Positions 3,991-57,749 of a stretch of DNA of 64,000 nucleotides are shown piece after piece. This DNA comes from Ceratodon purpureus (taxonomy: Eukaryota; Streptophyta; Bryopsida; Pseudoditrichales; Ditrichaceae). The notes beneath the pieces were generated by a model. It was given only the letters and a program-made list of their open reading frames with translations. It ran no database searches and had not been told where the DNA came from. The position numbers were made by a program, and so were the translations under genes. The stretch covers positions 7,306,740 through 7,370,739 of the forward strand of contig CM026433.1 of the NCBI GenBank assembly GCA_014871385.1, read 5' to 3'. Position 1 is the stretch's first letter. Each line of letters starts with the position of its first letter.

Positions 3991-5536
3991 GGAGTACTTG
4001 GCAGATTTTGAGCTGAGTGGCAAAATCCTCTTTGGTGTAAAGAATTGTGACAACAATACATTACAGCAAAATGTCACAAAATAGGTGCCGACATGATCTA
4101 ACCCTTGGAATCGATCCGGGTACCTCTCAGCAACAAATCTCTCTCCCTTTGTCCATTCATCTCTCGCGCGTCAGGTATCCCCCTAATGAGAGGTCCCCCG
4201 GATCTGCTCCGAAGATCTGCAGTTCTGTTATTAATACAAGTATTAGAAGCGCGCCCCTCAGGTTCATCTTGTTGGCTTGGTAGACATGCGGAGGAGCAGG
4301 TGATGCAGAGATGAAATGACAAGCAATCTGCTGCGCCGCCGGGGTCCAAAGCGTGGAATAAATCGATTCATGCACCAGGCCACTGAGGCCAGTGGGAAGG
4401 GAAACAGCTGCTGCTCGAGGGAGATCTGCCGATGTACTAGAGCCCGTGCCTTCCTAGAACAGTGACGTCAAGCTTGGGGAATCATAGTGTTTGCGTCTTC
4501 GCTTGCAACAGCGTGGATGCTTTCTTTGCTTTTGGGTTTCTGCCTTGTGGGGTTTAGTTCCAGTTCAATTGGTTTCAACGCAGATCTGGGGTTTCGTTTT
4601 GGGAGATAAAGCACTGAAGGAAAAGATCTCCAGGAGCCTAAAACCTGGCTCCAAAATAAATGAATCTGGTTAGATTTTCTGATGTGGATACATCTAGAAC
4701 GTCACAGGGTGACCCAATAGTCCTCTGAACACTATTAGAATCTGTATTCACTGCTGTCCTGAGAAATGATCAAAAGCCTGACGGTGAACATACACGATTG
4801 CCGAAGAATATGAACCATAGCTGATTCAGAGGCAATGTCTGGATGCAGACCTTGGGAGCCGGTTAGTCTGTGTCGGTTTGAAGGATAATTGTACTCAAGT
4901 GCAATTGGTCTATCTTCTTTGCTTTCTCAGTTTGAGATGGAGACAATTAGGATTGTGGACAATCTTGATACATGACAAGTAGGAGTAATCTTTCCTTGCC
5001 AGAATGCAGATGATAAATTTTCGTCAGTTTGTGTCTTTGCAAAGGTGACTTATAACCAACCTGAAGAAGAAATTACAGCAAAATGTAGACACCTGGAGTG
5101 ATTTGGGTGATTGACGTTGTAAACACATTCACGTTGGTCCTATTCACTGCGCATTCCATTGCTGTACAGCGGTGTTCTTCGTCTGCCCATCTAGAAGTTA
5201 AGTTCTTATCCGGTATCTGTATCATTAATGAATCAGTCACAAATTCTGAATGCCGACAAAGAACAAATTGTTTCTGGAGACAAACCGTGACTCCAGCTTA
5301 CAGAATCCCTATAATATTTCAGTTCTAGTTCGATATCAAACTAAGGAGGAACTCTCGTAGGTATCAATTGATTCAGTTTTTACGCATAAAACGTACTCAC
5401 ACTTGTTCATGCTTCCTTGCAGGGTCTTCAACAGCTCAGCTTTCCTTCTGCACAAGCTGAAGAAATAGAGCTCATAAATCATGTAATTATCTCACAGTGA
5501 ATTTGCACCTGAGCAATAAACATACACTCTGGCTAT
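3991..5536. other. Spacer without a supported gene
   Basis: Apart from the duplicated piece at 4876-4990, I see no coding exon here. Short open frames at 4098-4375 and 4491-4673 lack protein-like composition and splice support. Confidence 0.5.
4876..4990 (+). repeat. Duplicated segment, copy 2, empty site of the 190-bp element
   Basis: This copy matches the flanks of the element at 3762-3946 but lacks the element. The junction reads CTCAGTTTGAGATGGAG where copy 1 has the insertion, making it an unoccupied or precisely deleted site. Confidence 0.7.
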
Positions 5537-8500
5537 TCAGAAAATATTGGCGATACAGGTAGACAATGTAAACACTTGAGGAAGCTCCATTGAGTGCGGC
5601 ACTTCATCATAATATTGTTTGACCGTTGCCACTGCTCTAAGCTCCACCTTGCTGCGACACAAGTACAGCTTGAACGTGACTGTCACTCCCACCTCGTTCT
5701 CATCAATGAGAGAAACAAAATTGGAATCCTCGAGTAGATTAATAACAAAATGCCCTTCTCTTGTAACGGAATCCTGAAATGTGTACCTTGGCTCCTGCTC
5801 ACTGGAACTGTACAACTCCAAAGGTATTTGTGTTTGGCCACACGTGTGTGGGACGTCAAAGGGTCCTAACCTCGCAACCTGCTTGCCCTCTATCCGACAC
5901 TCTTTTACAAAAATTGGAACGAATCTGTTCCTACAAAATTGCTTCCCGCCTTTCACTTCCAAGAGATGAGACGGATCAACGCCGTGCTCGAAGGGCAAGA
6001 ACATGGTGATCCCGTAGGTCTTCATGAGAATTCGAGGCACAATGGCATCTGGGGTAACTGCTTGCGCAATTGCATCTGGAGTCAGTGCAAGTGCAATGGC
6101 ACCTTGCATTATGGCGCTACCAGGATTAGGGGGGCTGAATATGTGATCCACTTCATGACAGAAACGGGCGCGAATTCTTTCCATGACGTAGGGCGAGCCA
6201 GCAAACCCGCCCACCACAAACATCACCTTGACGCTTTGCACTTGACTCAACTGAGTTTCAATCAATCCAAGAATCTTATCCACCACTGGGTCGAAAATGG
6301 ACTTCAGATCTTGTTGAGTAAGCTCAATCTTGGAATAAGACTCACGTCGAGGATAGCCACGTTCCATCTCATATTCCTCCCCACTTTTCAGGGAGGAGAA
6401 TGTTATGGAGGGTGATGTTCATTGTATCTGTACTCGACATCATCTGATGGCCGAAGCCACACTTAATGTCCTCCCATTCCATTAGCAGCCGCCACCGATA
6501 CCGATCTTCCTCCCTCAGGAACTCGTCCAGACATCCTATTCTCCTGGATAAGAATTTCATGAAGGACGCGTCAACAGAAGTCCCTCCGCACCGGCCAACG
6601 GACGGAGCTGTAAGTTCCTGCACCTTGAAATTATTTCCACTCCGTATCACCTCTTGCACCACTACGTCCACTGTCCTGCCCCCAATGTCGACCACAAGAA
6701 CCTTATCTCGCACAAGCAATGTGGGCAAAGTTCTCAGGCTTTGGTGATCTGACACCAAAAGCTGATGGCAGTGAAATGAAGCGGCTTCTGTCTCCTGCAC
6801 AAGCATAACTGATTCTGGTCCTCCCTCACCAGACACAAGCCCAGCGTTCACCATGTACTCCCTCATCTGCTGCTTTGCGTTTTCGTCCCAGATGGATGGC
6901 ACTGACACGCACCATAGCACTGAATCCCTGTCAAAACTTGCAGGCTCGCTCTTACGAGCTGTCTCTATAGCTGATAAGGCAAGCTCACCAATGTACTTCA
7001 AGTAATCCGTGATGACAGAGTCCACCGTTAGCGATTCCCTCGCTGCCCATGAAGGAAGATCATTCAAGCGACTCAACAGGGAGCTCTTGCTCTTTAGTGT
7101 CGTAAGGTACAACCCTTCTACATTTGCAAGGTAGTCATGCTGCGCATGATAGCCCCAGGATGGCCTCTTGTGCTGGCCCCGTGACAAGCCCCGAGCGTAG
7201 AAACGAGGCTGTCAGAGTCTTGCAATATGGATTCTCCACAACGCCTCGTCCAGAAGAGCTCCCGCGAGGCGTCCATTCACCGTAGTAATACGGATAGTCG
7301 TTGTTGACGCACATCTGACCCCCAGTTGATACATTAGCATAGTAAGCGAAGCCCGAATAGGTGGTGCCGAAATCCAATGCGACCAGCCATTGAACACGAT
7401 AGCCTCTTCTCTTGAACCCAATTGGAGTAGATGAGTTACTGGCTGATGGTCGCTCCGGTATGTTCACTGATAGTGAAACCTCCCCTAACGCAGCTGCAAA
7501 CGAGAACGTCACTACTCAAACCAGCGTTCAACTTCAATTGAAATATTGCATCAATGCATATACAGTATGTCAAACAGAACTGATATCATACGAATTACAA
7601 TCTATGATACATATAGCATCTCCCATGAAAAAATCTGTTTCATCTAAACGAGAGATGCTTTAACTACATATGGCTTAAAAGAAAGACTTACATGGCATTA
7701 GAAGTTCACATTTAAGATGACGCAGCTCGGCACAAATTTCACCAAAGCTTGGGCGTTTGCTAGGATCTTGGTTCCAACATCTTTCAATCAAAGACTTCAA
7801 TAACGGAGGGCATTGACTAGGTAATGGTGGACGACCACCACTCACTACCACCTTCCTTACACTGCCAGGAGATACGTCTGAGAAAGGCACATGTCCAGTC
7901 AAGATTTCAAAGCATAGCATTCCAAAGCTGTAGATGTCGCTTTTGAAAGGATAATTCATGACTGTGGCCTTACTCTCAGACATCTCCACTTCATTTTCTG
8001 CATTGAAGATTGTATCATCTCTGGAGCCATCCACCTTGTCGTGCCCAAATTGAGAGTTTGGTTGGAATAGGTCATACTCCTTTCCTTCGTTTTTGACAGT
8101 CCAAAGTCAGCTACTTTCGCTACCACATACTCAATCTCTTGTGCACCAACACATCTGACAAGAATGTTCATCGATTTCAGATCACGATGCACAATCTTCA
8201 TATCATGCAGGTATTGCATACCGCCTCCTACTTGAAGCATTATGTCTACTCCTTCCATTATGTCAAACGGAGATTCTTGATTTCCAAGGCCCTCTGATAA
8301 CCTTTTATGCATCACGATCTAAGATCCCCATCCATCAGTTCTACTACAATGGAACAACTCCGCTCATCTGCAGTAGAACACAGCAAGGATATGATATTTG
8401 GATGGGACAACTTTCTCAAAATTGCAACCTCCTTCTTGAAGTCATTGTTGTCTGGTCCAATAAACGTTTTTATGGCAGCTTCACCTCCCATCCAATATGC

Positions 8501-9505
8501 TCTGTTCACAGTAGCAGCAGCACCTTTTCCCAGCTGGTCCTTTACTTTCAGGCTCCTGAAGACTGTTTCACCAAGCTGCTTCATTTGTTCCTCGCTGTTG
8601 AAAACTGTTTCAGAGCTTAAGTCCGAATGAGATGACCCTGGCAAGTCACCGGCCGGAATCAGCCTATTTGCCTCAAGTCTCTCACGTAGAAGACCCGCCA
8701 GCTGATACTCTATGCTAGTTGCCTTTTTCGTCTGAAGCACTGAATTTACATTTCTCAACAATAAATCTCTATCCCTTAATGCCCTTTCTTTGACAATTTT
8801 AGCTTCAGCTTTAAAAACAGCGTCCACTTTGGTCAGCGTGAAGCTTCGTCTTGCTCTCAATTTCTCACTTTTTGAAAAGACAAGTGTCCATAATTCCAAA
8901 TTAAAACCAATTGATAAAACATACTCCGACACATTTGTCGACGACATGGCAGCTTGAATCCAAGCATCCTTGGAACACTGACTTTGGATGAAGTTCTCCA
9001 CTTCCTTAGCTGACGCATATAGCAGCTTGAAAATTTTGAGGCAACTTGCCTTGTCTTCCGGTGAAGGAAACCAGAAGTATCTTTTGCTGAGTAACACTAA
9101 GAACGAGTCTGCGCTCTTCACGGCCAATTTCAGCTTATCAGCTAAATATTTGCACTGCCCAGAGTTGAATTTCAATGATATGAAACCACTTTGCGAAGAC
9201 AACCTTTGAACCCGCTCCATACAGCTTTTCGTGAGCTTTAAGTACTCCTCGGGCCCATTACCTGGATCGAACGTAACAAGATCGCAATCAACAGCACAAT
9301 CAACACGTTTTTCAATGAAATATGCCAACCTTAAGTCATATGACATTGTAGAGAGAAACATGTAAAGAAAACTAATAATGAATTTAACAGAAGGATCGAA
9401 GTACCCTTCAAACTGACTGTTATACTCAATGCTTGAAGCACACACTTCTTGTTTGGGATGGATCTGATACTTAAAGAGCAATGAACTTTCCAGCTGAAGA
9501 AGCAA
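5537..9505 (-). pseudogene. Protein kinase-HSP70-like fusion gene, multiply frameshifted
   Basis: Read on the - strand. The N-terminal part (to about 8600) is a helical region. A TKL-type kinase follows: Gly loop GKGAAATV, Lys in AAIK, catalytic HRDLKSMN, VADFGLS and WMAPEM, all present. The kinase exon ends in CCAT/GTAAGT at 7692. The next exon begins after TTTGCAG at 7493 and continues in the same phase (phase 1) into an HSP70/HSPA12-like ATPase with phosphate-1 VALDFGTTYSGFAY, phosphate-2 VVDIGGRTVDV and adenosine-site VVGGFAGSP, ending at 5537. Four one-base frame changes break the frame: about 8313-8320, 8003-8009, 7201-7203 (T-run) and 6379-6382 (G-run). An in-frame TGA at 9509-9511 may be a fifth lesion. 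No ATG was found in the ATPase exon before its first motif, which supports the fusion. The 5' end is unresolved. A recent pseudogene or an indel-prone assembly would both fit. Confidence 0.75.
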
Positions 9506-9511
9506 CTTTCA

Positions 9512-12500
9512 TTTGGTACGAAGTTTACCGTGTACAGTGACTAGCGATTTGAATAACCTGGAAAGTTTCATCTTGCCAACAACAGCACCTTGCTCCTTGC
9601 ACTCCGAGTCGGTAAAGTCTATGCGTCCTTCTGATAAAGATATTAATGAATAAATTCAATATTAGCGCATTGTTAGCACCTGAAATGCAAGAGCCGAAAA
9701 ATCTTCCACCAGCAGAAGTGGTTCAGGGCAGATTGCTTTCTCAGAGACCCTAAGCTCAAGTGAACTCCTAGTTCACTACGCACCGTGCTAACCATGGGAG
9801 AAAACTTGTTTGTTTACGTTTAAACACTGCCTCCGCGACAAAATTCGTCAAAAACACATGTAAAACAACAAACATTGATGGCAACTGTCAAATGGGAATT
9901 CTATTCACGTTCTAACATCGACCCCATAATTGAACAAAGGACCACTGATAAAGCCCCTAAATCAGCTCTGCAATACTAGATTACTAAAGACACTTACAGA
10001 TTAATGCGCTCTAGGTTACCTAACAGGCTAACAAGTGAAACAATTCGACATATACTTCTTTAACAACTTTCTACCATCAATTTTTAGCGCTCGTGAATAG
10101 TCGAGAACTGGGACAGTGCGGTTCATCGATGACGACGTTATCCGCTGCTCTCTATAGCAAACTCTACATAAAAAATTCTCAGAAATTGAGAACGACCCAG
10201 TACACACAACCTTTGGAAGGCCGGATTCTTGGATGACCCATCGACCATGCCGTGACCCGACCCAGTACCACCACCAATACATCCAGACTAACTTCTGCCT
10301 CTCTCCAAAACCTAGAACGACTATAATCTCATTCTTCACGTCAAAAACTTCGTGACCCACTATCGCACTTACAGAAAGGTAGGGATACCACGTACAATCA
10401 GAACCTTTCCATCATAAGCAAACAAACGCAAACTTCACCAACTTCACCAGTTCAAAAAACTCGGCTCAAACCTATAAAATCGCTCACAGGCTTTTGGAAT
10501 ACACTCACCAAATACGTCTTTAATCGTCGGTAAGGCAAGACACAAGATCCAGATGAGCACTGACCAGCGTCAACACATCGTTATCGAAAGAATCTTGTCT
10601 CTGTAGAAGTGCCCCTTCCAGATTCCTCGCCCATGGCACACAAACCCCTGCACAGTAACTAAAGCTGCGGAATCACAAGAGTCTCAACTAAGTAGCCATT
10701 TTGAACAAAGAACAAAGATGCACATTCATGAGCTGCAAATGGCTCCATAGTATCGAACTGACCCTGATCATGACCACCCGCACCTTGCACCCTTGTTTTA
10801 TTCTGGAAAAATCTTTGAAGCCTTCTTATATTGTAGCAAAAATGACTCTGGAACATTTGCAATCCCAAGGAGATTTCTGTCTGTACACTGCTTTACCGAC
10901 AGTCGCTGATGACGGTGATGAAGGCTCCATTGTTCACATTGCAAAATCTGGGCATGACACGCCATATGAAGGTGAGTTTCCTCGGTCTATCCCTTTTTTG
11001 ATTTTGTTTTCTCTGCGACTGAAGGGAACAACGGGGAACTGGTCAAAGTTTTTCAAGTTTTTTGAAGAAAGTGGAGGGAGAATTTAAGCTAGATAAGGAG
11101 TTCAGGAATGGGAATCTTTCATGATCCCAATGCATCGACTTCGTGAACATTCATGGTGCCAATATAAACATTCCTGGTTAGCTTTTTTATGACTTGAGTT
11201 GTGGGCGACGAGGATTAGTGAGTTTCAGGACTTCCACGTATCACTTAATTGCATGTTCTAGTTGGCCGTTTACATTTATTATTCAAATACCAATTAATTC
11301 GTTATGCAGCATGAAGCTGTTGGCGATTGAGCGACGAAGCACAGGGGAAGCACACTTAGCACACCTTTCTCTTTCCAACTTATTTCTAAGCATCTTCCGC
11401 TATCCATACACGAAGTAAAATATCATGTGATTCCCAGTTTTATAAAAAGACCTGACGAAAATTCCTGAAGTTACCACATACTGGTGTAGAATCTGATACA
11501 TGTCGAGGCTTAAAAATTATCGAAACGTGCAGACTGGATTCTAGGATTCAATTTTTGTCTCCAAGATACGATTAATAAATTATAATTACATCGCTTAGTT
11601 GCTAAGAAAGGACAAACAGCTCAGACTTGGAAATGCACAAAACAATTCTGGAATCTAGATGAGATATTTGAAATGTGTTTCCCTAGAATTTGGGGGAGGT
11701 AATAAACTTTGGTCTCACCTCTTGCTGGAAGTTCGGTGAAGAATACTCAGCGTCCTCCAACAGTCGAGTGGAGTTATGCTCAAAATATCTTACACATCAA
11801 TAGGAGACGCATGTCAGAGCTTCTCCAGGAAAGTCCTCACAACCGGTAGAAAGCTGTACAGACTTTTCTTCCTACTGTACAGATTGGTATGGGACTACAG
11901 AAGCTTCGGGTACCCAGTCTGGTGTTCTATAAATCGTCAATGCCCGATATCAAAAATCATAGAAGAAAAATAGAAGTTGTCCATTGCACTGCAGTGAGAC
12001 CAGTTGTACTTACAATATTCAAAACTAATTAATCCACTTTTGTGTAATGACAATGTCAATGTGAAGGAAAAAGCCTCGAAGAAATGGAACAATATGAACA
12101 GAAAATCTCAAACATGGACATCTGAATGATTCTACATCTTGCATAAGATGGTTTGAAATATATACAGAAATAGTAAACAAATGTACACAAGTAGTAGACG
12201 CGGTTCTACGAACACACCGCCAAAGCAATAATTTCTAAGATTCTGCAACTAGTTCTCCTGACTGTAAGGCACATAAGCTCGTAGAAACTTGTAGAAAAGG
12301 ACGTGTCTTGAATGGAGTAGGTATCGCTCATACCGCATCTCAACCTCTACAGCTGGCTTCGATCTGTTGATATACACAGGATGATCACTTCTAGCTGGAG
12401 GAGCTTTTCCTCAGAAACCAGATCTTGATAGAGCAGGCCGTCCACTGGAAGAGATTGACAAGCAGTGTGATGGTGCCATGATCCGCTGCTGAATGTACCT

Positions 12501-12533: not shown

Positions 12534-13376
12534 TTAAGTGTGTTTGGCCATATCATAGGCGCGACGCTCACGCGCCACTGCGCGCTTCCTGGCTGCATTG
12601 TCCGCTGCACGGGCCACTTTCTGCCTTCTCCTCTCTGCAACAAATACATCGCAAAATTAGTCAGGATCGAAATCGACTTCCAACTGATGATCACAATCTT
12701 CAAAACGAACAACAAAAAAGAAACTTCGACAGCCATGAACATCAACTATTCCTCCCAGAAACCACAATGCAGCTACTGAAAACTCTAACGGAAAAGAAAA
12801 ACTACAAGAACAACCTGCTCCTCTCCCACTTCAACCGAGAATGAACACGGAGTAAGACTTCGATCGTCAGACACCGCCACACTCGTTCAAGCTGAAAGGC
12901 TTTCAACTCATGGTCACCGCAACTAAGGCTGCTAATCTAAGCGCCGCAAAGTAACCACTACAAACCGTCGCTAATAGAGCTACACTCTGAAGCTCCCCTC
13001 CTACGTCATTGCAAATAAACACGAATAAAGACCTTAAGACGATTGATTACAATGCAGCTGTGTGTATATTACCTGTTGCAGCGGCCTTCACCTCCTTGAT
13101 AGTTTCCGTTGCCGCCACTCGCTTCACGGGATGCGACGGGTGCTGAAGACGGTACAGCTTCAACATCAAATTAGCACGAATGTGCGTCATCCTCTCCGAC
13201 ACTTTGGCTCCCGCGACAGTAAACCTCATCCCCGCATTCGCCTTCATGTCCGTGAGCCTCACCGCCGGACTAACCTTGCTCTTCGCCACCACAGTCCCCG
13301 CCGGCTTCTTCCCAGCCTTGGCATTCCCCCTCGCATTGCCCTTGGCATTCCCCTTAACTCCCTCCGTCCTCGCCAT
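12534..13376 (-). CDS. Small basic protein, diverged paralogue B
   Basis: Two exons on the - strand: 13376-13073 (304 nt, ATG at 13376-13374) and 12634-12534 (101 nt, stop TAA), phase 1 intron of 438 bp; 134 aa. The intron position and phase equal those of copies A and C. The N-terminus differs (MARTEGVKGNAKGNARGNAK, a Gly-Asn-Ala/Lys repeat), but the core aligns throughout (KVSPAVRLTDMKANAG, HPVKRVAATETI), and the exon 2 helix ends in AYDMAKHT. Being older than the A/C duplication yet intact, it argues that the family is under selection. Function unknown; basic composition suggests nucleic-acid binding (inference). Confidence 0.8.
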
Positions 13377-15579: not shown

Positions 15580-15783
15580 CAGCCCACCGGACCCGTAGAT
15601 CTTTCCCTCCCCTCTGCAGCCCCATCCGCACGATCCCCACGATCACGACACGCGTACCACCCCAGCCACCTGGAGGTAACCCAATAAACAATCCGACTTG
15701 GCAGACACCATCACCCAATCATACGCAGCCTCGACGCCACCTGTCACGCCATTCCCGCCAGAATCATTCTCCGTCGACACACA

Positions 15784-15790
15784 TATAAAA
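15784..15790 (+). promoter_or_regulatory. TATA box of small basic protein gene copy C
   Basis: TATAAAA about 375 bases before the ATG at 16165, mirrored in the other arm at 2614-2620. A donor-like CGGTAAGC at about 15897 suggests a 5' UTR intron, but its acceptor is not clear. Confidence 0.55.
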
Positions 15791-16164
15791 CCCGAGCTCG
15801 ATGACCGAAACCTTCATCTCCATCTGCTTCAAAACTTTTCTCATCTGCGCTCCATCCCCCATCCTCACGCCTTTCACTTTCTGCTAAACTTTCCTTCGGT
15901 AAGCAATCCAACCAGTTCACTAGAATTGTCTTCCTACCTGATATACTTTTACTTTAATACCATGGGCGGCTTTTGAGTCGATGCCAGGATTGAGTGATTG
16001 TCGATGGTGTCTGTTGGTCGATGTTTCATGTTTTGCGATGCATTTGGCTAGTTTTGTGGAGCGTGGTGTGAGTGGGAGCTTCGAGAGTGGATCTGACATG
16101 GTGGAGGTATGTTGATCGATGGTCGTTGCAGGTGTTGTGGTTGTGTAATTGTTGAGTTTAGAGA

Positions 16165-16807
16165 ATGGCGAGGACGAAGACAGTTGCTACGGGGACGGCC
16201 ACTGGGCGCCGGCGCAGACACGGAGCTGCGGGAGCCGTGGCGAAGAACAAGGTCAGCCCGGCGGTGAGGTTCACGGACATGCGGGCGAATGTTGGACAGA
16301 AGTTCAGCATCGCGGGCGCTAAGGTGTCGGAGAAGATGACGTACCTCCGGGCCAATGTCATGCTCAAGCTGTACCGCTTGCAGCATCCCACGCATCCTGT
16401 CAAGCGAGTGGCTGCTACTGAGAGCATCCGGAACATGAAGGCTGCTGCCACAGGTAATTGAGATGACATTCTTTACTCGAATTTCTGCAGTATTACTCTC
16501 TGCTCGGAGCATGTGGTGTTTGCTGCTTGTTTCTGTAACTGAAGGAAAAAAGCAGCTAGTGTAACGATGTCAGTAGTTAGAGTTCGTGATGTTTTTTTTT
16601 CAAGATTTTGCATGCAGCTGGGGTTTTGAGTTTTATCCGGGGCATAGGGGAATTATATAGAGTGTATGCAGGGGATTTAATTTTGTGAACACTTGTACTT
16701 GTGCAGAGAGGAGAAGGCAGAAAGTTGCCAGAGCCGTTGACAACGCTGCTAGGAAGCGTGCCCAAGTCCGCGAGCGCCGAGCTATGGCCATGGCCCGTCA
16801 TACATAA
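16165..16807 (+). CDS. Small basic protein, copy C
   Basis: Two exons: 16165-16453 (289 nt) and 16707-16807 (101 nt, stop TAA), joined in phase 1 by a 253-bp GT-AG intron; 129 aa. The N-terminus is MARTKTVATGTATG followed by RRRRHG, then KVSPAVRFTDMRANVGQKFS, a central LKLYRLQHPTHPVKR block, and an exon 2 helix rich in Arg/Lys (QKVARAVDNAARKRAQVRER). No targeting or membrane segment is visible. It is the near-identical partner of copy A and a diverged paralogue of copy B. After Met removal the first residues ARTKT resemble the histone H3 tail start. Family and function not recognised. Confidence 0.82.
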
Positions 16808-17020
16808 GACTAGTTGAGGTTGAAGGTTAATGGAAGTTTGGTAATTGATACTGATGCACGACGATCTGTACATATCAAGAGTTTTTTAGGGAGATTGAAG
16901 TTGACGGGAGAGCTGTGTAGAATAAATTTTTCTCAAGGAAAGTATCTTCCCTGTTTGCAAGTTAGGTGGAACCAGAATTGTAACATTATGGGATGGTGTA
17001 ATATAAATTGCCAGTTTGGC

Positions 17021-29404: not shown

Positions 29405-29975
29405 GTTTAGAGAGGATATTCGAAATTGCCGAAGTTTGAAGAATCTGCCGATGTAGTGAATAACTCCATTTTGTGAACCCATTCCTTCAGCTTTGATGGA
29501 GAGGTTCTTTGCTTTGGTGATTTTATGGCTTGCCCAAGTGAGATTTGGAGTTTCAAAATACAGTGCATATTCATGTTTAGAGAGGATATTCTAAACTGCC
29601 GAAGTTTGAAGAATCTGCCGATGAAGTGAATAACTAGCTCCATTTTGTGAACCCATTCCTTCAGCTTTGATGGAGAGATTCTTTGCTTTGGTGATTTTAT
29701 GGCTTGCCCAAGTGAGATTTGGAGTTTCAAAATACAGTGCATATTCATGTTTAGAGAGGATATTCTAAACTGCCGAAGTTTGAAGAATCTGCCGATGAAG
29801 TGAATAACTAGCTCCATTTTGTGAACCCATTCCTTCAGCTTTGATGGAGAGATTCTTTGCTTTGGTGATTTTATGGCTTGCCCAAGTGAGATTTGGAGTT
29901 TCATAATACACTGCATATTCGTGTTTAGAGAGGATATTCTAAATTGCCGAAGTTTGAAGAAACTGCCGATGTAGT
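29405..29975. repeat. 174-bp tandem array, about 3.5 units
   Basis: The marker AGAGGATATT recurs at 29411, 29581, 29755 and 29929 (spacings 170, 174, 174), with GCCGAAGTTTGAAGAA following each time. A more degenerate half unit precedes at about 29290-29405. Since 174 is 3 x 58, one long frame stays open by repetition, producing a repetitive ORF on the - strand that I do not consider a gene. Confidence 0.9.
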
Positions 29976-30639
29976 GAATGACTCCATTTTGGTAGTTCTG
30001 TATTCAGGTTTGGCCAAATGAGTGCTTGACGCTCAAAGTACTGTATATGTTCAGGGAGGTGTATACCAAGCTCTAGAGACACTCATGGCGGTGTCCCCAT
30101 AGCCAGTATTTGTCATTGTTCAGAGAGGCTCAATCCTGAACTACCTGAGTTAGCAGGAAATTAACTGCCGTTGTGGTGATTAAGTACTCATGGGACCTTA
30201 CTTACTGCTAATATAGTGAATAACATTACATATTCATGACTAGAAATGGCTTCCTAAACAGCTCAAGTAATGAGAGATTAACTCCTCATATGCTGAACAA
30301 GTACTCCATGGGACCTTGTTAGAAGAAACAGACGACGAATACAGTGAATACTGTGACATATTTATGTTGAAAGAGGGCTTCTTTAACAACCCGAATTAGG
30401 AGAAATTAACTGCCAACATAGTGAAGTACTTACTTCATGAGACCTTGGTCCTCCAGACCAAGACCATGTTACCTTTTGTGTTTCTCCTTGGTATTGATTT
30501 TTTCCTACCATGCATGGCTTGGGAATGATCCAACCAAGTTAATTAACTTAGCCTTGAGAGGTGATGAGAGTGTGAACATGAGCCTGGGCAAGGCGGCTGA
30601 GGAAGAGGGGGAAGAGTGTACTTGTTTCTTGTGTTGCAG

Positions 30640-30890
30640 TGGAGATTTGATGACCTTGTAATTACCTATAATGTATCCCATGCGTACATGCAAAAGGGTG
30701 TCCGGCTATAGATCAACCTATGTTGGTCACTTCCAAAATTTGTAGTTATTATTGTAAGTGCTTATAAATATCCCAAAAATGAGGAAACTTTGTTTTTTCT
30801 TATTGTTAATCACTGTAAAATAGGAAGCCACTCATTCCACCTCCACAAGTATAGTGAATTCCTTAAGTGTCCGAAAATAGATGCTGCTAC
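30640..30890 (-). mobile_element. Dispersed repeat segment (reverse copy of 60532-60768)
   Basis: The complement of this stretch aligns with 60532-60768, sharing AAGGAATTCACTATACTTGT, GATATTTATAAGCACT and GGATACATTAT. In the otherwise matching large repeat at 56190-56330 the position holds unrelated DNA, so this piece was inserted or substituted after the two large copies separated. No clear terminal inverted repeat was found. Confidence 0.7.
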
Positions 30891-31680
30891 CATAAGTTAC
30901 TGGATCGGATTCTGGCTCCACACTTCTCATTCTCATAGATAATTGAAGGTTTTTGTAACTCATTTGCTAGCAGCTTTGGGCAGCTTTGGGCAGCTTGGGC
31001 TCCTTTGTGACTTATGACTTTTTTTGATTTGAAGATAAATGTTAGACGACTCAAAAAATGATGTATCAAAATAGGGTGTTATGAAAATAGAATGCATTTC
31101 TAAGGTGAAAATAAGGAACCCCTCTGTTGAAAAATATATATGTCGTTGATTTTTGTTTAGAATGATGGTTTTTTTTAGTCATTTTCTTGGTTCTTTTATG
31201 CTTCCATTAGTTATCATAGTCCATGTTTTCTTTGTATGTACAGCTTTGATTATGTGTCAAAAAGAATAGTTTCAGTTGTAGTTATAGATTTTCGGTTTAT
31301 AAAATGAAAGTGGTAAGATAAATGACTTTGCAACATAGGCTATTAATGTATTGTACTTGTTGTGAGTTTAAGCATTCTTTCAATGAAGAATCCTTTTTTC
31401 TGGAGACAAGTAAGGCCAATAAATTCCAAAATAATTCATTCAGTCACCAAATTACTATGAAACTACATTAAATCCTTCAACAGTAACACCTGAAGAAGAG
31501 AGAGAGTCTGAGTAAAATGGAGAATCTGTTACATTGATCACACTGAGATTGAGCAAATTGGCAGAGCTGATCTTCAAGTTCACATGCAGTCTGCTGAGCT
31601 GATGCAGTGGAAATGGAATAAAATAAAGGAAAAGCATTGTGTGTCGGAGCAGGCTCCCACCTGGAGAAGATGTGGGTAAG

Positions 31681-31742
31681 TTTTGTTTTGTTTTTATTTT
31701 TTTATTTTATTTTTGTTTTTATTTTTTATTTTTTATTTTTTA
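31681..31742 (+). repeat. T-rich simple repeat (TTTTAT-type)
   Basis: Runs of TTTTTATTTT units between two copies of AGATGTGGGTAAGTT. The equivalent tract in copy 2 (57440-57507) has an extra unit. Confidence 0.85.
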
Positions 31743-31875
31743 GATGTGGGTAAGTTAATTGTTGTGTAGGATGACTCTGATCAACTTATGATCAGTGTTT
31801 GCCAAAGAAAGCAACAAAATCATTCGTTGCTGGAATTTTAATATTAATTCTGTTTGATAAGCATGTGATAATTAT

Positions 31876-32616
31876 TGGCATGGTGGGAGATTCCCACACT
31901 GATCAGGTGACGACGAGGTGAGTAGGCTTCATTTGCAAGTACTGTCAGCATGCAGCTCTTTTCTGTGACGAGTTTGATATTATTCTTTTACTGATATTCA
32001 GTGGATCAGGAATCTGAACTCCCTACACTGTAGCACCATAGCAGTATTTCCTTTAAGTAATAATAATAAATTTCAAAAATAGAAATTGGAAAATTTTGTG
32101 GATAGAGAAACGGAAGTAGAATGAATTGTTGTTTCTAATAATTTGATATTTTGGAGTCATTTGGATTGTTTTTAGTGATTTTTAGTAAGTAGAGGTGAAG
32201 TGTATTTTTTGAAAAATAAACAAATACTTGTGCAATTTGTGGCAAACTTGCTATTATAGCAAGTTTTCTTGGAGTGATTGAAATGCCTCATTTCAACTAT
32301 GCCCAATTCTATTAAAGCAGTGATTTCAGCTAGGGTTTGGAAATACTAGGGGGTAAATAGTGTATAAAGAAAACACAAATGCTTATTTATTTTTCAGGTT
32401 TATATGTATGTATTTTTTGTGATATTGAATTACATCTCACTAGCGTTCCAACACAGTTTGAAATTCCAAAATCCATCAATTTTTAAACAAGTTCTTGCAT
32501 TCCAAAGTTTCCAGTTTATTCCACTGTGACTATGACTTCGACTAGAATTTGTAAATGAAGTGCACCAGACTATACGTCACTTTTTATTTAGGTCACAATG
32601 AATAGAGGATGTACTA
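31876..32616. other. AT-rich spacer
   Basis: No supported feature between the end of the large repeat and the first TIR element. Confidence 0.5.
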
Positions 32617-52843: not shown

Positions 52844-55171
52844 ATGGCGTCTATGGACTGGATCTCCTGGAACGAGAGATTGAAGTCACTTGTAGAAGTC
52901 GACGAGCAGAGGGGGAGGATCAAAGCGAAGTTGTTAGATAAAGGCCCAGAGTATGCGAAGGCTTTGTTTGCTGATACTGATGGTGCCGTGCGAGCGTCGC
53001 TTCTAGCCCTCATTGAACCCGCTGGTGCTGGTATGATTTCTTTCCTAAAAACCAGTCAAGAAGGAGGGTAACATAGAGTTCCATGCAGTGCAGCCACCTT
53101 CGTTGCGGAAGACACCTGCACTCTTTGGTCTACTGTAGGGTTTCGTTAGTTCTGTTTTGTGAGCGTTGCGTGTGATCTTCTTCTGAAATTTTGGCAGTAA
53201 ATGAGTCGGTGCTTCATATTGAATCGTGTATGTCAACCTCCATGTCGACTATGTTATGTTTTCGTTAAATTTATGGTGAGTCGTCAGGATGTAAAGGTAG
53301 CAAGGTTGTAAGGTGTTAAGAAACCTGTCACCGCGGTGCCTGTCCTAGGGTCTGCACAGCCAGCTGCACATTTAGTAGGTATGTTCTTTAGAACCTGTTG
53401 AATTCTGGTTACGCACTACATGATAGATGGTACTCAACAACATGCGATGATGGTTAGGGTATGAGACTGCAGTGCCATTGATGAGTTATACACTTTGTTC
53501 TGTTTTATGTGATCTGCTCACTCCAGGTTATGGGCCAATACCTGGTACGCAAGAACAGCTACTGTTTTGGAAGAATTTGGAGAAAGCGGAGTTGAAAAGC
53601 GAAACGGTGTCAATCGACATGGAGGTAGACCAAATCCCGGGGAACCAGGATGCCGACATGGAGGTAGACAAAATCGATGTGATAGTCACCACTTTGGAGC
53701 TGCAAGACAATTCTACGTTCATGGGAGTTCAGGGAGGTATGTCACGTATCATGGTTCCCAAGTTCTATAACGACCTTTGGGAGAAGGCTGAGCTACTGAT
53801 TGACGGGGACACTCCAAAGAAGAAGGGCATGGTGATTACAGGGACTCCGGGCACAGGCAAGTCAGTCATGGGATGGTATTTCATCTTTAAGCTGAGGGAG
53901 AAACTAGGCTCTTTTGACTTAGTGTACCAGCATGAAGGAATGCAGACTTTCTATTGCAAGAATGGCGCTGTCACCTCGGCTGGAATAGCTGCTCGCAGCT
54001 TCAGCCGTGTGCTGTCAAGGAAGGATACGGTCTACGTCGTGGATGGCGTTAGTGTATTCGATGAGAATGCAATGACATTTGTTTTTGCCTCGCCTAATCC
54101 CAAAGGCTACAATGTGTTTCTGAAAAGGCCTGGCACGGGATTGTATTACTCGAAGGTCTGGAGCAAGATTGAGATCCTTGCTGCTCGGGAGCAGTTGTAC
54201 AAGCACATTGAAAAGAGTTCGGTACTCGATCTCTATAGGAAGTGGGGTGGGGTGCCTCGGTATGTGCTTGAGAGAGCGGAGGATCGTAATTTTCAAATCC
54301 ATCTAGACTCGATGATTGAGTCGGTGTCAGGGGACGATTGGCTAGACTTTATGACGAAAGTTGGGGGGCAGGGCCGTACTAAGATATCCGACGTTATCTT
54401 TCATTTCAGGACGGAAGATTACGTTCTGAGGACAGTGGATTTTGCCAGTTTCTATGTTTCCGAGCTTGCATATACAAAGCTGCAGAAGTCTGCATGGGCG
54501 AAAACTGTTGATTTTTTGGAAAGGGATGATTCAGCATCGGCAGCCTTTCGTGGGCAACTTTTTGAAACGGCTGCGCACGAGATGCTGTTGCGGAAGTGCC
54601 GTGTTAGGGTTAGGTCCCTGGAAGAAAATGGGCAGTCAGAAACTGTCGATTGGCCTGAGTTACAGCGTCGGAAATTTCGGAAACTTACTGATGTGAAAGG
54701 AGAAGGATCTGCTGGGTGCTACTGGAAACCAGAATCCAAGACGAATGCGACTTTTGATGCTGTGTGTACGAGTATTGGTGCACCCCTTGGTACGAGCGCA
54801 GCCCTGCAGATGACCATTTCGGAGGAGCATGGCATCAAGCATGATGGTAATATATTTGCACTGAAGTTTTTATAATCCTTTTGTTGTTTTTTGGGGTTTC
54901 ACTTGGGGTTTCATTTGGGGTTTTCACTCCAAATCCTAATAGTAACAATTATTTAACAGGGTTGGACAAGCTGCTGCGGGCAATACCTTTCGTGAAGAGG
55001 TTTTATTGGGTGGTGCCAGCCTTGATTTTTGAGGACTTCAAGAAACAGAAATTTAAAAATAAGGATTCGGAGCCACGGACCCAAGCGATATCGTATCCAG
55101 TTTCTGAAGTGGAGCAGTGGGCTTTGGAACTTCCATTGAATCATTTGCATCCAGGGGCAGTCCAGTCCTGA
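52844..55171 (+). CDS. Crinkler/RHS-like P-loop NTPase with REase-fold nuclease domain
   Basis: Three exons in phase: 52844-53030, 53527-54846, 54960-55171; 572 aa, no stop or frameshift. Residues 1-62 form a short helical N-terminal domain (SWNERLKSLVEVDEQRG). A spacer with two DMEVD motifs follows. The P-loop NTPase has Walker A GTPGTGKS (about 168-175) and a strand with VYVVDG. A conserved GGVPRYVLE segment leads to a C-terminal restriction-endonuclease-like domain: GQLFETAAHEMLL, FDAVCT, and LQMTISEEHGIK (the QxT variant of the ExK motif). The tail GLDKLLRAIPFVKRFYWVVP is typical of this group. In oomycetes and fungi such proteins are secreted Crinkler effectors; in trypanosomes they are RHS proteins. 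No secretion signal is visible here, so a host-internal role is possible. A small extra exon around 53340-53380 cannot be excluded. Confidence 0.85.
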
Positions 55172-55199
55172 ACCTCAGGCAGAGCCAGTCCAGCACATA

Positions 55200-57637
55200 C
55201 CTTCAGCTTTGATGGAGAGGTTCTTTGCTTTGGTGATTTTATGGCTTGCCCAAGTGAGATTTGGAGTTTCAAAATACAGTGCATATTCATGTTTAGAGAG
55301 GATATTCTAAACTGCCGAAGTTTGAAGAATCTGCCGATGAAGTGAATAACTAGCTCCATTTTGTGAACCCATTCCTTCAGCTTTGATGGAGAGATTCTTT
55401 GCTTTGGTGATTTTATGGCTTGCCCAAGTGAGATTTGGAGTTTCATAATACACTGCATATTCGTGTTTAGAGAGGATATTCTAAATTGCCGAAGTTTGAA
55501 GAAACTGCCGATGTAGTGAATGACTCCATTTTGGTAGTTCTGTATTCAGGTTTGGCCAAATGAGTGCTTGACGCTCAAAGTACTGTGTATGTTCAGGGAG
55601 GTGTATACCAAGCTCTAGAGACACTCATGGCGGTGTCCCCATAGCCAGTATTTGTCATTGTTCAGAGAGGCTCATTCCTGAACTGCCTGAGTTCGCAGGA
55701 AATTAACTGTCGATGTGGTGATTAGGTACTCCTGGGACCATACTTACTGCTAATATAGTGAATAACATTACATATTCATGATTAGAAATGGCTTCCTAAA
55801 CAGCTCGGGTAATGAGAGATTAACTCCTCATATGCTGAACAAGTACTCCATTGGACCTGTCACCTTGTTAGAAGAAACAAACTACGAATACAGTGAATAC
55901 TGTTACATATTTATGTTGAAAGAGGGCTTCATGAGACCTTGAAACTACCCAAATTAGGAGAAATTATCTGCCAACATTGTGAAGTACTTACTTCATGAGA
56001 CCTTGGTCCTCCAGACCGAGACCATGTTACCTTTTGTTTTTCTCCTTCTTATTGATTTTTCCTACCATGCATGGCTTGGGAATGATCCAACCAAGTTAAT
56101 TAACTTGGCCTTGAGAGGTGATGAGAGTGTGAACATGAGCCTGGGCAAGGCGGCTGAGGAAGAGGGGGAAGAGTGTACTTGTTTCTTGTGAGCATGGAAT
56201 CCGAGTGGGGATGGGAAGCATTGTCACAGATTCGGCGATGCTTTGGTGTCTATGCAATGTGCATCCCAAATGAGCTCATGATGCTTGCATTGCTCATCTC
56301 TGGGTGGGGCCATTCTACTAAGTTACTGGATCGGATTCTGGCTCCACACTTCTCATTCTCATAGATAATTGAAGGTTTTTGTAACTCATTTGCTAGCAGC
56401 TTTGGGCAGCTTGGGCTCCTTTGTGACTTATGACTTTTTTTGATTTGAAGATAATTGTTAGACGACTCAAAAAATGATGTATCAAAATAGGGTGTTATGA
56501 AAATAGAATGCATTTCTAAGGTGAAAATAAGGAACCCCTCTGTTGAAAAATATATATATGTCGTTGATTTTTGTTTAGAATGATGGTTTTTTTTAGTCAT
56601 TTTCTTGGTTCTTTTATGCTTCCATTCGTTATCATAGTCCATGTTTTCTTTGTATGTACAGCTTTGATTATGTGTCAAAAAGAATAGTTTCAGTTGTAGT
56701 TATAGATTTTCGGTTTATAAAATGAAAGTGGTAAGATAAATGACTTTGCAACATAGGCTATTAATGTATTGTACTTGTTGTGAGTTTAAGCATTCTTTCA
56801 ATGAAGAATCCTTTTTTCTGGAGACAAGTAAGGCCAATAAATTCCAAAATAATTCATTCATTCACCAAATTACTATGAAACTACATTAAATCCTTCAACA
56901 GTAACACCTGAAGAAGAGAGACCCTTGCGATAAACCTCGCCCTCGTCTTAATGACGAGGGCCCCCCAACCAGGGCTGTCATTGGAGGGGGCAAAAAGCCC
57001 CCTATATTTTGCATGTTGATGAAAAAAAAAATTAAAATTTTAAAAAAAATTAAAAAATATATAAACTAACTAAAATTAATCTTGTGGGTCCCCCTAGGCT
57101 AATTCGGGGTCCCCGGTTTCATTAAAAATAAAAAAATTACTAAAAAAGGGCCGCAGGGCCCCTAAAAATAGATCAGGGAGGTAAGGAGAAAGGGGAGGAG
57201 GAGGGGGAGGGCCCGCCTCGTCATTAAGACGTGGGCGAGGTTTAGAGCGAGGGGAAGAGAGAGAGTCTGAGTAAAATGGAGAATCTGTTACATTGATCAC
57301 ACTGAGATTGAGCAAATTGGCAGAGCTGATCTTCAAGTTCACATGCAGTCTGCTGAGCTGATGCAGTGGAAATGGAATAAAATAAAGGAAAAGCATTGTG
57401 TGTCGGAGCAGGCTCCCACCTGGAGAAGATGTGGGTAAGTTTTGTTTTGTTTTTATTTTTTTATTTTATTTTTGTTTTTATTTTTTATTTTTTATTTTTT
57501 ATTTTTTAGATGTGGGTATGTTAATTGTTCTGTAGGATGACTCTGATCAACTTATGATCAGTGTTTGCTAAAGAAAGCAACAAAATCATTCGTTGCTGGA
57601 ATTTTAATATTAATTCTGTTTGATAAGCATGTGATAA
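55200..57637. repeat. Large dispersed repeat, copy 2 (pairs with 29484-31875)
   Basis: Begins 29 bases after the stop codon of the NTPase-nuclease gene at CCTTCAGCTTTGATGGAGAG and runs to the right 112-bp repeat. It has two 174-bp tandem units (marker AGAGGATATT at 55297 and 55471) against about four in copy 1, and a nested 332-bp element at 56922-57253. Confidence 0.88.
56922..57253. mobile_element. MITE, 332 bp, 9-bp target-site duplication
   Basis: Terminal inverted repeats of about 38 bp: left CCCTTGCGATAAACCTCGCC, right complement CCCTCGCTCTAAACCTCGCC, both followed by a shared CGTCTTAATGACGAGG. Flanked by GAAGAGAGA at 56913-56921 and 57254-57262. The large repeat copy 1 (about 31491-31510) has the same context with a single GAAGAGAGA, i.e. 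the empty site. GC-rich ends enclose an AT-rich core. A 9-bp duplication suggests a Mutator-like (MULE) family (inference). No coding capacity. Confidence 0.88.
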
Positions 57638-57749
57638 TCATTGCACAGTGAGAGATTATAAATAGAAAACCCACCGGAAACACTCAACCATCTACAATGT
57701 CCACTTGATGCTCAGAACATAGATACGCTCGAATATATTGTACCAAAAT
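57638..57749 (+). repeat. 112-bp direct repeat, right copy (LEA 3' flank)
   Basis: Second copy of 51461-51572. It lies 90 bases downstream of the LEA stop codon on the LEA strand and probably includes its 3' UTR or polyadenylation region. Confidence 0.92.

Follow-up and report, generated by a model that had tools for sequence, protein, structure and literature searches.

A probable kinase/HSP70-like fusion in the moss Ceratodon purpureus and the modules found behind its kinase family

On contig C13 (CM026433.1) of the moss Ceratodon purpureus, the 64,000-nucleotide stretch analyzed here (G000:C13:7306740-7370739, hereafter the window) carries on its minus strand a protein kinase exon followed by an HSP70-like exon. 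The DNA strongly suggests that the two exons encode one protein. Comparison of related loci across the genome (362.5 Mb, 151 contigs) shows that the kinase exon of this TKL-type family, which has a conserved N-terminus predicted to be helical, ends at a conserved phase-1 donor and that different modules lie behind it. Our best explanation, to which we assign a probability of about 0.55, is a modular family of kinase fusions in which a damaged HSP70-like ATPase has become a sensor or decoy. The bare combination of kinase and HSP70 is already in print; what is new is the evidence on the junction, on module swapping and on the ATP loop, and the pattern across the family is the interesting part.

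The kinase/HSP70-like gene and its open copy

The kinase exon (7692..9508, minus strand) comprises an N-terminal helical domain (~9253-8549) and a TKL-type protein kinase domain (~8551-7723); position 9508 is only the start of the open frame. The exon ends in CCAT (7692) directly before GTAAGT, and a predicted phase-1 intron of 198 nt (7494..7691, minus strand), recognized by its splice signals and by the paralogues, closes in TTTGCAG, after which the next exon begins at 7493 in the matching phase. This HSP70-like exon (5537..7493, minus strand; stop codon at 5539-5537) holds a nucleotide-binding-type domain (~7395-6068) and an SBD-beta-like domain (~6037-5618). Its motifs, all on the minus strand, are phosphate-1 (ALDFGTTYSGF, 7348..7380), an altered phosphate-2 (DIGGRTVD, 6666..6689) and adenosine (FVVGGFAGSP, 6191..6220). 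The splice signals and their phase were found in the DNA as the original prediction had described them, and its observation that the ATPase exon has no ATG of its own before the first motif (LDFGTTYSGF) was borne out.

The same prediction read kinase and ATPase as a continuous gene and did not mention that, in the window copy, each exon is split into three open pieces: 9508-8315, 8318-7959, and 8106-7678 for the kinase part and 7515-7138, 7211-6372, and 6418-5540 for the HSP70-like part. On these six broken pieces, the Pfam score for HSP70 reached only 17.5 bits against a cut-off of 20.6. Continuity was found in a second copy, L039 (C13:7260000-7267999); the prediction had itself asked for intact paralogues. 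There, the kinase frame is open over 611 aa and the HSP70-like frame over 658 aa (from the preceding stop), in the same frame, and Pfam recognized both PF07714 (E 1e-53) and HSP70 PF00012 (E 2e-6, above the cut-off). The intact gene is located at ~C13:7261548-7265517.

Alignment of window positions 3997-11990 with L039, 50.7 kb away, showed 16 one-base indels across ~8 kb but not a single mismatch; the limits of this duplicated stretch are those of the extent compared. The gene itself holds 4 of the 16 indels, and all four break frames in the window copy. Since the two copies differ by one-base indels only, the frame breaks of the window would represent sequencing or assembly error, and we infer that one C13 copy carries such error rather than biological decay. 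Most likely, the window copy duplicates the intact gene and is riddled with indels, and the repeat is likely an assembly duplication in the chromosome model. One compared stretch at C13:7290000 had no match in the window, so the duplicated block appears limited in extent.

We then compared both parts with their relatives, using the best candidates among the kinase, HSP70-like, and NB-ARC matches listed. Hereafter, A is the C13 gene as read in L039, and the other loci are C2 (L040), C3a (L062 and L013), C3b (L063 and L014), C4a (L064), C4b (L078), C8 (L066), and C11 (L065 and L050). We call an HSP70-like frame linked when it stands behind a kinase of the window gene's family, and free when no match to that family lies upstream. 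The count of tandem pairs took in 53 of 112 kinase matches (short, repeated, and weak pieces were excluded), 50 of 51 HSP70-like matches, and 14 of 121 NB-ARC matches, picked near kinases by eye. At least 8 kinase loci (7 if the C13 copies are one) were followed on their own strand, at a distance of 1.9-2.2 kb, by an HSP70-like match, where chance would give 0.015 such pairs. When both sides and both strands were considered out to 5.5 kb, there were 10 kinase/HSP70-like pairs, 9 of which were same-strand and downstream (C8 counted twice); the tenth was not.

A GT stands at the homologous kinase end, always in phase 1, in 21 of 24 readable relatives (28 scanned; counted by eye). The acceptor is homologous in A, C3a, and C3b, where GCAG/CT is followed by a related linker of ~33-49 residues up to the motif. 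An ATG upstream of the motif was present in 15 of 16 free paralogues (13 of the 16 read by script; L047 and L048, whose motif FDFGTT fell outside the pattern, added by eye), and in the nearest ones, L044-L046, it lies ~92-107 residues before the motif. The linked frames are without that start region, and no in-frame ATG precedes the first motif in A, C3a, or C4a. Values of dS for the kinase and the HSP70-like part were 0.99 and 0.78 in C3a-C3b and 1.08 and 0.98 in A-C3b, a similarity expected from joint duplication under constraint, and dN/dS in these linked pairs was 0.17-0.36. At C2, the kinase frame is kept (608 aa) and the HSP70-like match breaks off 37 residues into the query piece, ~30 of them exon. 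Together, the open second copy, the conserved phase-1 junction, the missing start codon, and the similar dS in both parts support a single polypeptide, and the fusion is probably real. At the level of DNA, junction, phase, missing start, and paralogues would fit the layout of plant kinase fusion proteins, in which a kinase is joined to another kinase or to an unrelated domain.

Kinase, N-terminus and ATP site

The catalytic residues K347, E360, H441, D443, N448, and D468 (numbering of L039) are invariant in 27 of 27 kinases. The predicted structure has long helices in the N-terminal domain. We searched for a name for this domain with Pfam in 18 of the 27 sequences, the loop pattern having missed the other 9. 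DUF1221 matched in 1 of 18, weakly (E 0.042). MLKL_N was found in 0 of 27 sequences among the best 25 of 33 families listed and in 0 of 18 by Pfam, and MCAfunc (PF19584) in 0 of 18 by Pfam, a search that a distant match would escape. Neither MCAfunc nor MLKL_N was retained as a name, for want of a clear Pfam match. By sequence, the N-terminus had a single match in the PDB, at E 0.56. MLKL was not among the best 50 matches of Foldseek or of VIA-align, both dominated by the kinase domain. The PDB entries 6ka4 and 6lba, which we take to be AtMLKLs, match the kinase part weakly.

In structure comparison (VIA-align), the matches listed for the modelled HSP70-like part include proteins with a DnaK-like nucleotide-binding domain and an SBD-beta, at 15-20% identity; the predicted structure thus has the Hsp70-type nucleotide-binding fold with SBD-beta, and the model contains no helical lid. 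With phmmer, one HSP70-like piece gave no match to the PDB up to E 1, but a profile search did match. Of the three ATPase motifs named in the original prediction, phosphate-1 and adenosine are present and phosphate-2 is non-canonical: the loop GGRT aligns to GGGT of BiP, with DIGGRT where the free paralogues have D[IV]GGGT[SAV]D. All 14 free paralogues read, out of 16 free loci (L048, a twin of L047, and L049, which is broken, were excluded; L055 lies outside the set of loops read), keep GGGT, whereas the loop has changed in 6 of the 7 kinase-linked modules read. The third Gly is Arg in the window gene and Ser, Trp, or Lys in other linked modules. A conserved Glu is replaced by Lys in C3a and C3b and an Asp by Asn in C4a and C4b, and 4 of 7 linked frames end after the nucleotide-binding part. 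Gene A keeps the phosphate-1, EPEAA-like Glu, and adenosine motifs. The HSP70-like part is probably a non-working ATPase. Of the proposal that a single polypeptide couples phosphorylation to a chaperone-like ATPase, the single polypeptide is supported from the DNA; the coupling to a working ATPase is weakened, because phosphate-2 has lost its canonical form in this gene and in 6 of 7 linked modules overall, against 0 of 14 free ones.

Trees were built on a subset of loci (29 kinases and 20 HSP70-like frames). In the HSP70-like tree, the linked modules of A, C3a, and C3b make up a single clade (97/96), C11 pairs with free L047 as its sister (100/100), and C4a groups with C8, less well supported (87/73) and on long branches. 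The linked or free label requires at least 3 changes on this tree, each of which may be a gain or a loss. The kinase tree joins C4a and C11 as sisters (100/100). That these two have sister kinases but non-sister HSP70-like parts argues for module exchange, and two or three separate joinings of kinase and HSP70-like parts are likely.

The possible N-termini of the free loci L044, L045, L046, and L047 read MACFGWC, MGGFKFMCC, MGCADFLGC, and MAGGFRIGSFVCC, respectively. They resemble possible lipid-anchor signals, and the region is missing in kinase-linked modules.

Modules behind related kinases and other features of the window

We examined ten regions at relatives of the kinase (L067-L076). Pfam identified kinase domains of another type at L067, L069, and L072. 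Downstream of kinases L017 and L029, L068 and L073 contain a partial second kinase or kinase remnant, then DUF7792 and Arm repeats. One of these DUF7792 stretches weakly matches MLKL_N (E 0.019). L075 contains an alpha/beta-hydrolase-like frame with Pfam matches below cut-off only, and no nameable module was found at L070, L071, or L074. At L076 (65-3085, plus strand; C13:6875400-6879000), one 1007-aa open frame has two protein kinase stretches; it is a tandem kinase of the window gene's family with no intron between the kinases.

Downstream of at least 4 kinase loci, at a distance of 1.7-2.3 kb, an NB-ARC domain follows on the same strand, a count that is a lower bound and carries no chance estimate. 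At C7:7769150-7773404 (L079 and L026), one strand carries a kinase, next to it a frame that matches the DUF676 serine esterases (27.3 bits against a cut-off of 20.3), and then the beginning of an NB-ARC domain (28.0 bits against 23.5); the usual GT at the junction is missing. This locus may encode a kinase-hydrolase-NLR. The hydrolase elbow motif usually carries a serine; the VCHGFGG stretch of the C7 frame is without it, so this hydrolase module may have decayed too.

Elsewhere inside the window, kinase and HSP70-like paralogues were limited to chance-level pieces, and neither Rfam (at the gathering threshold) nor a tRNA scan gave any hit in the window. A 474-aa frame at 53451-54872 (plus strand) resembles P-loop ATPases (KaiC, NPHP3_N) only weakly, with scores below cut-off. 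Positions 1397-2813 and 15592-17007, with 13068-13289 in addition, form a 1.4-kb inverted repeat of 88% identity; it contains a small basic frame, in copies that match no Pfam family. Direct repeats, 96-98% identical and in pieces over ~2.4 kb, lie at 29654-31892 and 55196-57657 and are perhaps the ends of a mobile element.

Rival readings and known systems

In the explanation that we favor, the HSP70-like module would be joined behind the kinase and work by analogy with plant kinase fusion proteins. The kinase, with its kept catalytic residues, would be the signalling part, and the HSP70-like part a damaged ATPase turned binding, sensing, or decoy surface, perhaps acting as bait where a pathogen effector or client has the free HSP70-like proteins as its target. 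Once something bound to this surface, the kinase would be released or clustered, and a defence or stress response would follow. With more reserve, we put forward a wider and tentative idea in which the phase-1 intron is an exchange point for intracellular receptors: NB-ARC, hydrolase-NB-ARC, a second kinase, Arm repeats, or HSP70-like parts would be swapped behind one signalling kinase, and captured HSP70-like ATPases would lose their ATP loop and become integrated decoys or sensors, in the position that NB-ARC has in kinase-NLRs.

Several observations weigh against the explanation that we favor. The junction has exceptions among the 24 readable relatives, with GC at L018 and no GT at L026 and L028, and for C4a, C8, and C11 the acceptor sites are only guesses. 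C11, C8, and C3b each have an in-frame ATG ahead of the motif, so a separate HSP70-like gene is possible at these loci. C11 keeps all motifs, GGGT loop included. Because the linked modules share ancestry, 6 altered loops of 7 do not represent seven independent events, parsimony requiring at least 2 losses, and "free" implies nothing beyond the definition given above. The modules behind the relatives were placed by their position downstream of the kinases. An immune function of the family is possible, by association only.

A working chaperone ATPase coupled to the kinase, whose cycle gates the kinase or refolds clients, would suit the predicted nucleotide-binding fold and SBD-beta-like part, the motifs kept in A, and the full set of C11. 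We consider it unlikely in view of the replaced third Gly of phosphate-2, the Lys-for-Glu and Asn-for-Asp changes, the GGGT of every free paralogue read, and the four linked frames that end early. Two adjacent genes, namely, a kinase whose short tail is encoded by the intron and an HSP70-like gene that begins in an unseen first exon or at a codon other than ATG, seem more improbable still. The unspliced kinase frame of A does read CKSFF and then stops, and the ATGs of C11, C8, and C3b and the closeness of C11 to free L047 would fit. But the gap in A is just 198 nt, A, C3a, and C4a are without ATG, the phase-1 acceptor is homologous in A, C3a, and C3b, and the linked frames miss the start-codon region of their nearest free paralogues. 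Moreover, the tandem pairs have near-constant spacing, and Physcomitrella patens proteins with both domains are listed in PMC8049495. Least probable to us is a true pseudogene, born of a recent segmental duplication and giving no product from the window copy. Its four frame breaks speak for this, but no substitutions beside 16 one-base indels in 8 kb would be a pattern of error, not of decay, and the intact copy is left untouched by such a reading; the indel-only difference led us to reject it as the principal explanation.

The fusion that we favor can be set against several known systems. Plant MLKL has a helical N-terminus and then a kinase domain, a layout that the window gene is predicted to resemble; the window gene differs in keeping the kinase motifs and adding a C-terminal module. 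With Hsp70-type proteins (Hsp70, Ssz1, and putatively HSPA12) it shares the predicted DnaK-like nucleotide-binding domain and SBD-beta, and Ssz1, an Hsp70 not known to hydrolyse ATP, is among the structural matches; the low identity, the altered phosphate-2, and the lidless model set it apart.

The original prediction knew of no described protein of this architecture, a statement that does not hold, and bryophyte proteins with both domains, for which it proposed a search, are on record: Table 2 of PMC8049495 lists MCAfunc plus Pkinase with an additional HSP70 domain, 2 proteins, in P. patens. These are also moss proteins with kinase and HSP70 after another N-terminal domain. They differ in that Pfam found PF19584 in none of the 18 N-termini here, so that orthology is no more than possible, and the available part of that paper gives no intron, motif, or function analysis of them. 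In the literature searched, which left most subscription journals outside, we found no description of the junction intron, the module swapping, or the ATP-loop change. Kinase-NLRs (Pkn-NLR) are known in non-flowering plants (PMC11218826), so the window gene's kinase family, which lies upstream of NB-ARC at no fewer than 4 loci, with a DUF676 hydrolase between at one, appears to supply some of them. In contrast, the window gene itself has an HSP70-like exon after the kinase and no NB-ARC.

A further parallel in layout is with plant kinase fusion and tandem kinase proteins such as Sr43, Pm13, and Lr9 (PMC10260397, PMC10951266), which likewise unite a catalytic kinase with an unrelated, sometimes degenerate module and arose by repeated fusions; none of the partners named in the available parts of these papers is HSP70-like. 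PMC10260397 presents the integrated-decoy model and describes cloned kinase fusion genes as apparently unique to Triticeae, and PMC10951266 reports a helical-domain kinase acting in resistance. Such fusions are a recent addition to the known plant resistance proteins, and the examples in the available parts of these two papers come from grasses. If our explanation is true, a moss family that swaps modules, NLR parts and decayed HSP70-like parts among them, behind one kinase exon would be a second, independent system for the function of fused modules. It raises the questions of whether something binds both the free and the linked forms and whether loss of the ATP loop matters. As free HSP70-like paralogues with intact loops are present in the same genome, the decoy idea is directly testable in this moss.
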